Positions 59,624 through 64,000 of a stretch of 64,000 bases of DNA are shown one piece after another (position 1 is the stretch's first letter; each line of letters starts with the position of its first letter). Source of the stretch: a virus; IMG/VR virus record IMGVR_UViG_3300027896_000001, positions 1 through 64,000 of that record. The stretch is one strand, 5' to 3'. The position numbers and the translations under genes were made by a program. Under the pieces are notes generated by a model. It was not told the DNA's origin, made no database searches, and saw only the letters and a list, made by a program, of their open reading frames with translations.

Positions 59624-59959
59624 TTATCCCACCGGCGTTCCCACCGACTGTTCCGACTGATACGGGTCAGAGTTCATTAACGCTTCGAGAACCGATTTTT
59701 CAAATGCTTTCAGAGAATTTGTCTCCAAAACCACACCGGTCTCATCGAGAATTCTGAACAATGTTTTAGGGTCAACCTCCAGATTACACACCTTTCCACC
59801 ATAACACGAATGAATAATAACTTCATTTGTTTTCTGGCCTCCAGGTTTTCCTCCGGCAGAAGGTTTACCATACCTGCAATCAATCGAGCCAATCGATGAA
59901 AATGGGACTATGAATGTCTTCATACCATTTTCGCCCAATTGGATTATGTGCAGTACCAT
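59624..59959 (-). CDS. Hypothetical protein downstream of the ubiquitin-like operon (111 aa)
   Basis: The ATG at 59959 has AAAGGA upstream at a rather long spacing. The protein has an N-terminal strand (VLHIIQLG), a Gly/Lys-rich loop near residues 31-42, a beta-strand pair and a C-terminal helix, ending SVGTPVG. It is separated from the modifier gene by a strong hairpin, so it may be transcribed separately. No family is recognised. Its place next to the modifier operon and its Gly ending make it worth testing as an associated factor. Confidence 0.6.
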   Translation of the reverse strand: MVLHIIQLGENGMKTFIVPFSSIGSIDCRYGKPSAGGKPGGQKTNEVIIHSCYGGKVCNLEVDPKTLFRILDETGVVLETNSLKAFEKSVLEALMNSDPYQSEQSVGTPVG

Positions 59960-60051: not shown

Positions 60052-60528
60052 TCAGTTGCCTTTGACGACTTGGCTGCAAATGACGCGTACTTTGCCACTC
60101 GACGGCCTTTGCAGAACGTAATCGATTTTTACAGGCTCGTTAACGCCGGCAATCCTGAATTCGAAAGCAGGATCGCCGTTGGCCCGGAAAAACGATGAAC
60201 GGTCAGCGTCGGGAAGCTGATCAAGAGTTTGTTTGATGGTATACCCGTCCATGGCGGGGAGGGTTATCCCCCTCCCTCCGCCAAGACGGAGAATTTCGAC
60301 CTCGAACGGGTCCAGGTTGCCCTTGACCATTTTGGAGATATAGATCACATCGCCATCGTACAAGGTCGTGTCAAGGTAAACGCGTTCCTGCCGGCGAGTT
60401 ACCTCGCCTTCGACGAATTCCCGTTCAGCCTGTTCGAAGAGTTTTTCCACCGTCGAATTCGGTTCGAGGGCGAAACTTTGAATCTCCGTATTCAGCTGAA
60501 CAATTTTTACTACGATATGATTTGGCAT
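60052..60528 (-). CDS. Tandem beta-grasp (ubiquitin-like) modifier
   Basis: This 158-residue protein contains two beta-grasp-like halves. Half 1 (residues 4-71) has HIVVKIVQLNTEIQSFALEP, TVEKLFEQAE and VYLDTTLYDGDVIYI, the usual ubiquitin/ThiS/PRTRC-C pattern of strand-turn-strand, helix, and L.DGD.I. Half 2 (72-158) is more diverged. Both halves end in VKGN (68-71 and 155-158), so the repeat boundary is clear. No C-terminal GG is present; removal of Asn by the neighbouring JAB peptidase would expose Gly. I infer it is the substrate of the adjacent E1-like enzyme. AAGGG lies about 10 bases upstream of the ATG. Confidence 0.7.
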   Translation of the reverse strand: MPNHIVVKIVQLNTEIQSFALEPNSTVEKLFEQAEREFVEGEVTRRQERVYLDTTLYDGDVIYISKMVKGNLDPFEVEILRLGGGRGITLPAMDGYTIKQTLDQLPDADRSSFFRANGDPAFEFRIAGVNEPVKIDYVLQRPSSGKVRVICSQVVKGN

Positions 60529-60564: not shown

Positions 60565-61347
60565 TTACATCACTTCTGTTGAAATTGGCATAGCTAATAC
60601 TGGTTCTTCGCCGAAACATCGTAGATAGAACGTTTCAGGATATAGAGAGAATTGAACTTCATTCCACTGCATATAACCCTGATCTTTTCCACCTCTGATA
60701 TTATCGTCTCCGTACCGCATATTAAAATGTTGAATTATTCTTCCAACTGCAAGACTTGACAAAAAACTTACAGTTGAAACTATTGACTGACTTGTTCCGC
60801 ATAAGGAATTTTCAGCGACGTCATCGGAATACAACGTCTTTTTCCACTCTTCAACGTGCGCACCATTGTTCGGGTTAAACGAATAGATCCGACCATCTTT
60901 CAAACCCATTCTCGTTTCTACCAACAAATCAGTATTAAACGGGAATCGCAAGTGTTTGTCGAAGATTTCCTTCCTGCTCGACATTGTGTCAGTTAGCAAG
61001 AAAACGTAAGTGGATCTTAATAGATCCGAGTTGGTTTTGTCATCAACCATCTGATTGTAAGCCTCGATTTTGAAGCCGCATTTTCTTAAAATTATTTCAT
61101 TAAGGGCCTCAACTTTGGGCTTTCCTATGTGGCCTTCCTCATAAATCTGATTGGCTAGATTGTGAGGCTCGACCTTATCTCCATCGAACACACGTAATAC
61201 TCCCTGGCCATGGGCGGCGTCTCCCCAACCCATTTGGGCAAGAAGTAGCGCGACATACGAACCGGTCGCGCCGACCCCAATCAAGGAAATTGATTTATCT
61301 TTAATTTGTTTAGGATCGAGGAGCCCAGATTGGCGTGAATAATCCAT
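60565..61347 (-). CDS. ThiF/E1-like adenylyltransferase
   Basis: This 260-residue protein has the E1 core: ISLIGVGATGS with GxGxxG at residues 24-29, FDGDKVEPHNLANQ (55-67) for ATP and metal binding, GKPKVEAL, LLTDTM (D120), and SLCGTSQSIVSTV with a candidate catalytic Cys183. It lacks the C-terminal ubiquitin-fold extension of eukaryotic E1, as in bacterial ThiF, MoeB and PRTRC-type enzymes. It would adenylate the C-terminus of a beta-grasp modifier. GAGGAG lies seven bases upstream. Directly preceded by the JAB gene and followed by the modifier gene. Confidence 0.88.
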   Translation of the reverse strand: MDYSRQSGLLDPKQIKDKSISLIGVGATGSYVALLLAQMGWGDAAHGQGVLRVFDGDKVEPHNLANQIYEEGHIGKPKVEALNEIILRKCGFKIEAYNQMVDDKTNSDLLRSTYVFLLTDTMSSRKEIFDKHLRFPFNTDLLVETRMGLKDGRIYSFNPNNGAHVEEWKKTLYSDDVAENSLCGTSQSIVSTVSFLSSLAVGRIIQHFNMRYGDDNIRGGKDQGYMQWNEVQFSLYPETFYLRCFGEEPVLAMPISTEVM

Positions 61348-61348
61348 G

Positions 61349-62230
61349 TCAGAACTCCTCGTACCGTTCCATCATTCGTTTTACTTCTGCTTCCGTGGCT
61401 TCCGGGTGCAAGCCACGGTACATTTCATCTTCTTCATCCATCGCTCCTCCATTAAATTGTGGAGGTGTAGCTCCCGGAAACACCTTCGGAAGAGGAGCGC
61501 GATAATCATCACGATGATAAACAAATGGAGCCGTGTAACTTGTCGGCTCAGGAGGTATATTAATTTTTTTAAGTTCTTCGATTTTTTCTTTTATTTTTTC
61601 AGATTCCGGATCAGCTGTGCATGCTTCCATGATTTTTGCAAGTTTCAATCCATGGGCAAGGTTTGAATCCAGAACTCCTTTAATTTCTGTAAGCTTTTGT
61701 GTTAATAATGTTTCGTTGTCGAATTCCTCGGCAGACCAAACAATATTGTCAAATCTTATTTGTTTTGCATAGTCAAAGAATGAAACCGACATTAATCCGT
61801 CATTGTTAACGATAACCCTGATAACATCGGCTTTTGTCGAAGACATTCTTTCCAATGCTTGTGTATCGTCTTGACCTGAAGCGAACACTCCCATTGAATG
61901 ATGGGAATGTCCCCATAACATCATTTTACTTATATCTTCTTCGCGGCCATGTGAAAGAAGCCATTCTATTAATTTCGCTTCTCCCTCAGAGGATATCTCA
62001 CACGTAGCGGCTGACGCTAATTGGTGTTTGGGATAGAAAATATCTCTGACAAAATAAGAATATTCCGCAACCTTGTCGACAACCCCATAAAACCCAATTT
62101 CATGGGCATGTAAATCGACAAGGTTTTCAATCCATTTCAGGGAAAGCCGTGAGAAAACGATCGTCGGGGGAGTCTTTCTCTCAGGCTTTAAAATTATATA
62201 TGTTGGTGCTGTTTGCGTGTTCTTCATCAT
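61349..62230 (-). CDS. JAB/JAMM (MPN) metallopeptidase
   Basis: This 293-residue protein has a complete JAMM motif: Glu44 in HAHEIGF, then WGHSHHSMGVFASGQDD, in which H108, H110, S118 and D121 fit HxHx7SxxD. An N-terminal strand-helix region and a charged helical C-terminal 130 residues flank it. Prokaryotic JAB proteins cleave isopeptide bonds or process modifier precursors; in this operon, trimming of VKGN ends or removal of conjugates is the likely job. It overlaps the previous stop as ATGA. Confidence 0.9.
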   Translation of the reverse strand: MMKNTQTAPTYIILKPERKTPPTIVFSRLSLKWIENLVDLHAHEIGFYGVVDKVAEYSYFVRDIFYPKHQLASAATCEISSEGEAKLIEWLLSHGREEDISKMMLWGHSHHSMGVFASGQDDTQALERMSSTKADVIRVIVNNDGLMSVSFFDYAKQIRFDNIVWSAEEFDNETLLTQKLTEIKGVLDSNLAHGLKLAKIMEACTADPESEKIKEKIEELKKINIPPEPTSYTAPFVYHRDDYRAPLPKVFPGATPPQFNGGAMDEEDEMYRGLHPEATEAEVKRMMERYEEF

Positions 62231-63453
62231 TGTGCGGCCGCCACTTCAACCTGTTCATGATAAAGTGGAAAATATTTTGCATGGCATCCCCACCCGTCAT
62301 CAAGATCAGGATTTTTGATAAATCTGATTAATATTTCTGAAGCCATGACAATGTCTTTTTTAGAAAAAGCGGTAAACAGTTGTTCAAACGCTTTTCCAAA
62401 ACAAACATCTCCACCATGTATGATATGACCGCCGTCCCAAGCTTCGCCGCCATATTCAATGTGGCGAGTCCTGTTTTTGATCTTTATCAGATCATGAGGG
62501 ATTTGTCCTGAGGAAAGTTCGCACAATAGGATGTTTGAATTTATTAGGATTTCGTATTTTCCAAGGTCGTATCGATTGCCGTTATTCAACACCTCTGTTA
62601 TCATATTTTTAGTCAGCAAAACGATATTTCCTGTAACATCTACATAGACTTCTTCGAGGAGGTTGTCCTCTGAATTAAGTTGGTTTATTTGTGCCAATAT
62701 TTTTTCTATTTGAGGATTGGCATTAATTGGTTTTGATAATGTTTCTATTTCGTTTTGAAGAACAATCATTCTTGAAGAAAGTTTACTGAGTTCCGCGATT
62801 CTTTCAAATAATATATTGCTTGCTGACGCCATTTGATTACGCATTGCTTTTGCAAGAATAACAGAAACTATTCCTGTGTCAGCCTTTTGATGAGCCGGAA
62901 GCAATGTCGAATATTCTTTAATAACAGCCTCTTCGCTATAATCATCTTCTTCATTGTTTCGTGGGCCATCGTCTTCACGAAGAATTGGACCACGCCGGCG
63001 CACTGTTATCGCAATATTTCCTGGTGGCGGAACAGGATGCGTTCTTTGTAGCGGAACAGGATCTGTTCTTTGTGGCGGAACAGGATGTGTTCTGCCCATA
63101 TCCAGGCCTCTTTCACGTACAGGTTCTTCAGGCTGTGGAGGCAATCCTTGCACAGCCACGTACGGGCCTTCATCCATTTCTCTTGCAGGAGCGACTTCTT
63201 CTTGCGGAGCTTCTTGGGGAGCTACATTAATATAAAAAGTATCTCCTTCTCCGCCGCTAAGAACTAATGCGCCATCTGCATGAGACGAATATTGGTTTTC
63301 AATTATGTCAGCAACCTCGTCTATATGAGCACTATCAATATCAATAACAAGATCGCTGCCGATTTGTTGCATTCCTTTCGAATATTGGAAAATATCGGAA
63401 GTTACATTGTTTATGTTAATTCCTGTATTTCCCTTAATCATTAATATGGCCAT
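62227..63453 (-). CDS. Large E2-like protein with coiled coil and Pro-rich linker
   Basis: AAAGGAG precedes ATG 63453. The 408-residue protein has an N-terminal beta-rich domain (1-80), a disordered Pro/Glu-rich linker (82-170) that includes three 8-residue RTHPVPPQ-type repeats, a coiled coil (about 208-262), and a C-terminal E2-like region (about 265-390). The latter has YEILINSNILLCELS and HIIHGGDVCFGKAFEQLFTAFSKKD, with candidate catalytic Cys351 after a His and Gly pair and a downstream helix with an ALxxFI pattern. The His-Gly-Cys-Gly order follows bacterial E2-like proteins, but the family match is not certain. Its end AAAQ is GC-rich. Confidence 0.5.
   Translation of the reverse strand: MAILMIKGNTGININNVTSDIFQYSKGMQQIGSDLVIDIDSAHIDEVADIIENQYSSHADGALVLSGGEGDTFYINVAPQEAPQEEVAPAREMDEGPYVAVQGLPPQPEEPVRERGLDMGRTHPVPPQRTDPVPLQRTHPVPPPGNIAITVRRRGPILREDDGPRNNEEDDYSEEAVIKEYSTLLPAHQKADTGIVSVILAKAMRNQMASASNILFERIAELSKLSSRMIVLQNEIETLSKPINANPQIEKILAQINQLNSEDNLLEEVYVDVTGNIVLLTKNMITEVLNNGNRYDLGKYEILINSNILLCELSSGQIPHDLIKIKNRTRHIEYGGEAWDGGHIIHGGDVCFGKAFEQLFTAFSKKDIVMASEILIRFIKNPDLDDGWGCHAKYFPLYHEQVEVAAAQ
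63027..63098 (-). repeat. Three 24-bp tandem repeats in the E2-like gene
   Basis: The units at 63027-63050, 63051-63074 and 63075-63098 share GCGGAACAGGAT(C/G)(T/C)GTTCT and encode RTHPVPPQ, RTDPVPLQ and RTHPVPPP on the minus strand. Confidence 0.85.
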
Positions 63454-63469: not shown

Positions 63470-63988
63470 TTAAATGGTCACTCTCACCGGCAGCGCATCT
63501 GCCAGCAAATCATCAAACTTCTTTTCTGTTTCTTTTTTCTTTTCGTAAATTAAAAACTCTTCATGATCTTCGCCCAAAGCTACGGATTCAGGGACTTCGG
63601 GCCATGTATTGACATGTTGTCCGGCCCCATCAGACGTGTTTGCCGTCTGAAGGAATATGAGAATTTGATAAACCAAATCAAATAGATTTCTTTGTCTGTA
63701 TGCTTCAACCATGCCTGTTGCAAGGTTGCCATGACAAGCGTGCCCGTCTTCAAATACATGGGGCGCGTGAAATCCTGTATTCATTCCCATACCGCCGGTA
63801 AATTTTGTATTGAAAATTCGCACAGTGTTATTCGTGTTATAGGAAAAATCAAGCATACCAATGGTGATATGAAAAGTTCCAATATCGTGCCATTTTTTGC
63901 TTCTTTCATCCTTCACGTATAAATTTTTCGTATATACATGAACGGTTCCTTCACGAATATAAATTGCTGAAACTTTATTAATAGCCAT
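63470..63988 (-). CDS. Small E2-like protein
   Basis: This 172-residue protein starts with a strand-rich part and has near its middle FHAPHVFEDGHACHGNLATG (residues 73-92). In it His74, Pro76, His77, Gly82, Cys85, Gly87 and Asn88 resemble the (H/A)PH...dG..C.GN signature of bacterial E2-like and PRTRC-B-type proteins. The following helix VEAYRQRNLFDLVYQILIFL fits the E2 helix. Cys85 is the candidate acceptor for the activated modifier. The ATG at the right edge lacks a visible ribosome site; TATAAT lies six bases upstream. It is the first gene of the conjugation operon within the window. Confidence 0.6.
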   Translation of the reverse strand: MAINKVSAIYIREGTVHVYTKNLYVKDERSKKWHDIGTFHITIGMLDFSYNTNNTVRIFNTKFTGGMGMNTGFHAPHVFEDGHACHGNLATGMVEAYRQRNLFDLVYQILIFLQTANTSDGAGQHVNTWPEVPESVALGEDHEEFLIYEKKKETEKKFDDLLADALPVRVTI

Positions 63989-64000
63989 AGTGTCATTATA

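Follow-up and report, generated by a model that had tools for sequence, protein, structure and literature searches.

A phage-borne cassette of E1, E2-like and JAB genes with a tandem beta-grasp modifier whose two halves end in an invariant KGN motif

To our knowledge every known ubiquitin-like pathway uses a C-terminal glycine of its modifier (alanine in some bacterial cases); a glycine in this position fits the channel of the E1 enzyme and survives as a thioester. Among the described bacterial systems BilABCD, an ISG15-like anti-phage system, combines a tandem beta-grasp modifier with E1, E2 and JAB proteins, its E1 being an IAD-AAD pseudodimer with a Cys domain, and BilC exposes the C-terminus of the modifier (PMC11354881). 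The PRTRC or type 6d operons encode a JAB protein, an E1, an E2 family member and a small ubiquitin-like protein, PRTRC protein C, which consists of one domain ending in a single glycine. Two ubiquitin folds in tandem, joined by a short linker, are found in ISG15, FAT10 and linear di-ubiquitin, and single domains with a Gly-Gly end in sulfur carriers and modifiers such as ThiS, MoaD and SAMP2. A C-terminal asparagine is adenylated in E1-type fashion by MccB of microcin C7; its substrate is a heptapeptide, and we know of no E2-like or JAB partner of this enzyme. The cassettes described here define a family that is a variant of the bacterial and phage E1/E2/JAB systems and not a member of the Bil, PRTRC or polyubiquitin groups. 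The literature covered, which included few subscription papers and no preprints, yielded no published description of them.

The window, by which we mean the whole 64,000-nucleotide stretch of viral DNA analysed, carries at 60052..60528 on the (-) strand, like all features of this locus, a gene for a tandem ubiquitin-like modifier of 158 aa, recognized from its open reading frame, an AlphaFold2 model, Foldseek matches and ten further homologues. Its N-terminal beta-grasp half (residues 1-71, 60316..60528) has predicted strands at residues 5-11, 17-21 and 61-64 and a helix at 27-33, and its C-terminal half (residues 72-158, 60055..60315) predicted strands at 75-81, 88-92, 122-126 and 147-153 together with helices. 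The first half closes with SKMVKGN (VKGN at residues 68-71, 60316..60327) and is followed by LDPFEVEI, in which LDP leads into the strand that opens the second half; this half in turn closes with SQVVKGN (VKGN at residues 155-158, 60055..60066) abutting the stop codon. The translated frame thereby bears out the first-pass annotation, which had placed VKGN at both of these ends and had pointed to the absence of a terminal Gly-Gly from either half; a GGG lies internal to the second half at residues 83-85. The gene is present as a single copy in the 174,649-base virus record that contains the window, in the whole of which neither a second modifier nor another KGN-ended open reading frame of at least 50 aa was found.

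The AlphaFold2 model, built from an eight-member alignment, folds as two beta-grasp domains (mean pLDDT 85.5), whose arrangement is uncertain because the pTM is 0.51, and predicts the KGN tails to be disordered (residues 67-71 and 156-158 at pLDDT <50). With this model Foldseek recovered from the PDB linear di-ubiquitin as the top match (E 3.7e-7), ISG15 as the next, and FAT10 and the tandem domain of OASL among the best; viral models yielded ubiquitin of giant viruses, a Caudovirales protein that is uncharacterised and, further down the ranking, a protein of a crAss-like phage. The phage modifier differs from ISG15, FAT10 and di-ubiquitin in its low identity to them (about 10-14%), its lack of Gly-Gly and its phage origin. 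The two halves are homologous in a profile comparison (hhalign E=2.5e-7), and remain so when the last four residues are left out (1.7e-5). The earlier proposal of two beta-grasp halves, which depended on such homology, is thus upheld by the tail-trimmed comparison and by the agreement of AlphaFold2 with Foldseek. About 19 residues are identical between the halves of the window protein, which have diverged outside KGN, unlike the near-identical, GG-ended repeats of polyubiquitin. The N half resembles ThiS, MoaD and SAMP2 in fold and tail length, and that of one homologue (L012) passes the Pfam ThiS cutoff (28.0 versus 22.5 bits); the window modifier itself gives no Pfam match. The differences from these carriers lie in GN for GG, the tandem form and the JAB and E2-like partners. 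In PHROG the modifier weakly matched a major head protein (E 0.005); this match spans residues 10-58 only, found no other support and was rejected.

With the modifier and the E1 as queries we recovered ten more loci, all distinct and either phage or phage-like (L002, L003, L011, L012, L017, L019, L020, L043, L044 and L045), which together with the window protein give the 11 members counted below; L018 and L013, duplicates of L017 and L012, were left out. All 11 modifiers are tandem proteins of 154-178 aa, with pairwise identities of 33-79% (mean 46%), and in place of a ThiS/MoaD-type Gly-Gly each has [VT]KGN at the ends of both halves (22 of 22 sites). The 11 members all agree in just 19 of 158 columns, and six of these make up the two KGN motifs (hypergeometric P about 1.4e-6); in the N half of the eight-member alignment KGN accounts for three of just six invariant columns. 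Shuffled sequences would be expected to contain 0.45 KGN per whole family, as against the 22 observed, and never exceeded 4 in 2000 shuffles. On these figures the invariant KGN is not due to chance. The residue after the internal KGN varies across the 11 members (L, V, Q, S, D or A) and usually leads to an acidic or proline stretch and then to the strand that opens the second half. The position after the terminal KGN is also variable (stop, F, S, R, L or K): six of the 11 have no tail, and the remaining tails are L, KS, RW, or 14 or 21 residues long, the last being that of L011. Such variable tails behind a fixed motif look like those of a trimmed precursor, and none of the 11 modifiers ends in KG-stop. 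The sole match in the cellular genome collection (L020:1944-2629) lies on a 4.5-kb contig in a euryarchaeal MAG bin from LacPavin sediment, with a broken E1 reading frame and an intact modifier; this contig is probably phage DNA inside the MAG bin. The annotated phage collection contained no modifier homologue at an E limit of 10.

The two best PDB matches of the N-half profile, individually weak, are MoaD 1vjk (E 0.037) and ThiS 1f0z (E 0.55), both chains of which we take to end in GG. From the DGD turn onward the HMMER alignments of the N half with each of them have no gaps; as printed, they end in MoaD at K, residue 96 of 98, and in ThiS at residue 63 of 66. Extension to the chain ends superposes K-G-N on x-G-G, with Gly70 at the penultimate and Asn71 at the terminal glycine position, in a sequence-derived frame that could be off by one. 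The frame of the C half is uncertain, because its profile gave no MoaD/ThiS-type match in the PDB and its turn is one residue farther from KGN than that of the N half.

The genes of the operon are transcribed in the order E2-like a, E2-like b, JAB, E1, modifier and a small conserved protein. The E1 is a ThiF/E1-type adenylyltransferase of 260 aa (60565..61347) which exceeds the Pfam ThiF gathering score (75.4 versus 28.1 bits) and has the GxGxxGS nucleotide motif of this superfamily, as GVGATGS in the window and as GxGATGS in the ten loci besides L020. Its cysteine, Cys183 here, lies within CGxSxSI in all 11 loci, L020 contributing a fragment, and its best PDB profile matches include MccB, PaaA and UBA6. 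The adjacent JAB/JAMM metalloprotease of 293 aa (61349..62230) displays the metal-binding motif E...HxH(x7)SxxD, formed by HSHHSMGVFASGQD and Glu44. HxH...S.QD recurs in 11 of 11 loci, and across the family the region gives weak Prok-JAB, PRTRC_A and desampylase matches, all below cutoff. The JAB protein that the first-pass annotation had placed in the operon of the modifier is hence present with its JAMM motif intact in every locus, and here it is accompanied by an intact E1.

That annotation omitted both E2-like proteins, which are an additional point. E2-like b (408 aa, 62227..63453), whose gene overlaps that of JAB by 4 bp, has a putative Cys in GGDVCFG; of E2-like a the C-terminal part (63470..64000) falls in the window, with a putative Cys in PHVFEDGHACHGN that is invariant in 6 of 6 sequences. 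Its whole gene occupies 63470-65755 of the 174,649-base record and encodes 761 aa (full open reading frame in L008), mostly beyond the window. The two are paralogues (hhalign E=1.6e-15) with their candidate cysteines aligned (PHVxxDGHxCxGN and GHxxxxGxxCxG), and both align, more weakly, with the E2-like protein encoded by a Xanthomonas phage. A search for the E2/UBC fold by AlphaFold2 and Foldseek returned a poor model (pLDDT 65.6) with no significant PDB match, the Knl1/Nsl1 complex appearing at E 1.1; the Cys motif and the gene context make an E2 fold plausible. As E2-like a and b are paralogous and the modifier halves homologous, duplication in this lineage extends from the modifier to its putative carrier. 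The small conserved protein downstream of the modifier (111 aa, 59624..59959) has a weak PUB-like Pfam match (E 0.15). Homologues of it follow the modifier in L002, L003, L011 and L012, and an open reading frame of similar size takes the same position in L017, L019, L020 and L043-L045. Directly upstream of the operon (positions 65806-66165 of the L008 record) is a gene for a small protein which, by eye, we take to be VRR-NUC-type nuclease-like; it is conserved in L002, L011, L012, L017 and L019.

Like BilABCD, then, the phage cassette unites a tandem beta-grasp modifier with an E1 and a JAB protein; the E2-like proteins, assigned by Cys motif and context, are putative counterparts of the Bil E2. 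It departs from the Bil pattern in its E1, a single ThiF domain and not a pseudodimer with a Cys domain, its two E2-like proteins, its lack of an encoded terminal glycine and its carriage by phages; PADLOC gave no match for the modifier, JAB or E2-like proteins. With PRTRC it has in common the four activities, that of E2 being putative here, a stand-alone ThiF-type E1, a modifier devoid of GG and an E2-like cysteine in a GxxCxG context, whereas PRTRC protein C is one domain ending in glycine and the phage modifier is a tandem. Membership of PRTRC, suggested by the VKTNG end of that protein, was rejected on the NCBIfam scores, the ThiF, A and C profiles being either below cutoff or without a match (PRTRC_ThiF 35.9 versus a cutoff of 144.75, PRTRC_A 12.4 versus 101.8), and protein C as a relative of the modifier on dissimilar profiles (hhalign probability 0.1%).

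Rows of modifier, E2-like, JAB and E1 genes also occur in crAss001, DAC15, bajarodcaudo virus 1 and Flavobacterium phage FpV4. The crAss-like and FpV4 cassettes are, like the present family, phage-borne and arranged in a row near replication genes, but their modifiers are single beta-grasp domains in which a long extension comes after KSGA or KSGG (L004:2286-6696, crAss001 gp79-gp76; L034:1495-5672, DAC15; L005:2625-6636, FpV4). In crAss001, DAC15 and FpV4 the cassette genes are annotated merely as thiamine biosynthesis, metalloprotease or hypothetical protein. A gut-phage group has comparable gene rows as well; its ubiquitin-like proteins (L006:3191-3427, L046:1115-1345, L048:143-394, L049:1085-1312) carry K[MA]DNA with LAA, R, AA or nothing behind it, an extension of 0-3 residues, and NA seems to stand for GG in this group because a relative (L047) reads KADGG-TN. 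In one gut phage the E1 gene is directly followed by one for a protein (L006:6888-8225) that is presumably reverse-transcriptase-like, from a YADD motif seen by eye. The tails of L002 and L011, ending in LAA and IAA, and the ALAA end of the L006 modifier prompted us to consider ssrA-like degrons; a conserved degron was ruled out, as the ends seen among L006 relatives are DNA-R, DNA-AA and DNA-stop. Xanthomonas phage PhiXhv-16 encodes a candidate ubiquitin-like protein ending in SGG (L007:2808-3230) and an 892-aa E2-like protein (L007:3310-5988) adjoining a ThiF gene, with no JAB gene seen nearby. Since KSGA and K[MA]DNA ends are found in other phage cassettes, non-GG ends are not unique to the KGN family; judging from the encoded ends, a fixed Asn is unique to it among the cassettes examined.

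We consider it an even call that these genes constitute a phage-encoded, self-contained pathway of E1, two E2-like proteins, JAB and tandem modifier, the modifier being an ISG15/BilA-like tandem of ThiS/MoaD-type beta-grasp domains and Asn a functional end residue replacing glycine. The flexible KGN tail would be the end that enters the E1, with Asn occupying the terminal-glycine position as a functional residue and, in the version we prefer, being retained when the E1 engages the tail; JAB would trim any extension beyond the second KGN and later cut conjugates. The tandem unit probably serves as a linked pair, since the internal KGN is separated from the next strand by no more than about four residues; such a use, which the first-pass annotation had raised as an alternative, fits an ISG15/FAT10-like architecture. 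The Asn looks functional, and not like a disposable cap, because it is invariant at all 22 sites, KG-stop ends are absent and the MoaD/ThiS frame sets it on the terminal glycine. That the modifier is activated and also attached through this residue, the E1 adenylating the Asn carboxylate and both halves keeping a usable KGN, we regard as doubtful, and we know of no ubiquitin-like modifier conjugated via Asn; such attachment might possibly proceed by a C-terminal succinimide reacting with a target amine. MccB is an E1-type enzyme that activates the C-terminal Asn of MRTGNAN (PMC12250964; PMC13255007); it converts the activated Asn to a succinimide and makes no thioester (PMC12250964), and yields thioesters once the Asn of the substrate is replaced by Gly (PMC13255007). 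Because this route leads to a succinimide without a thioester, a Cys relay should work poorly with a terminal Asn, and the conserved relay cysteines of the E1 and E2-like proteins speak against Asn as the end residue.

Those same cysteines, being of the thioester type in the E1 and both E2-like proteins, are better suited to a glycine end, and it is a genuine if tentative possibility, put forward in the first-pass annotation and the main rival of our reading, that KGN marks the end of a precursor. JAB would then cut KG|N, perhaps at the internal site as well, the single glycine so exposed would be adenylated and passed as a thioester to the E2-like proteins, and Asn would act as a P1' recognition residue. 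The operon has an intact JAB, the cut is chemically easier than Asn as an end residue, and PRTRC protein C normally closes with a single glycine (VKTNG, VKTKG, KSKG). Moreover, Iyer et al. 2006 predicted that JAB frees a phage ubiquitin-like domain at its last glycine (PMC1779556), and processing of BilA by BilC exposes a glycine (PMC11354881). However, no member has dropped the Asn at its last codon, and a KG end would fall one residue short in the MoaD/ThiS frame. In modifier precursors the P1' residue tends to drift, yet this Asn is invariant in 22 of 22 cases while P2' onward is free. Conservation and frame favour Asn as the end residue; thioester chemistry and the conserved cysteines favour the KG|N cut. 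Alternatively, the tandem protein might not be conjugated at all, its KGN tails only docking in the E1 or JAB and the linked dimer serving as a scaffold or an inhibitor, perhaps of a host ubiquitin-like defence. The missing GG, the hindrance that Asn at the reactive position would pose to a thioester relay, and the equal conservation of two tails of which just one is a free C-terminus are consistent with this. We nevertheless hold it unlikely, given a single operon, conserved across the family, with its own Cys-bearing E1, two Cys-bearing E2-like proteins and JAB, and lengths beyond the last KGN that vary as if trimmed. It is highly improbable that the two halves have VKGN in common by chance or through recent duplication: they are indeed homologous, but with about 19 identical residues the window halves have diverged outside KGN, and KGN persists in both halves of 11 of 11 members down to 33% pairwise identity.

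A double-headed phage tag with Asn at the usual reactive glycine raises the question of how it is activated, and the cassette supplies small, expressible proteins for a direct test. With E1, E2-like and JAB proteins retained and Asn fixed in both halves, the family tests how strict the rule of the C-terminal glycine is. It also shows phages to carry complete modification cassettes of a type known mainly from bacterial defence.
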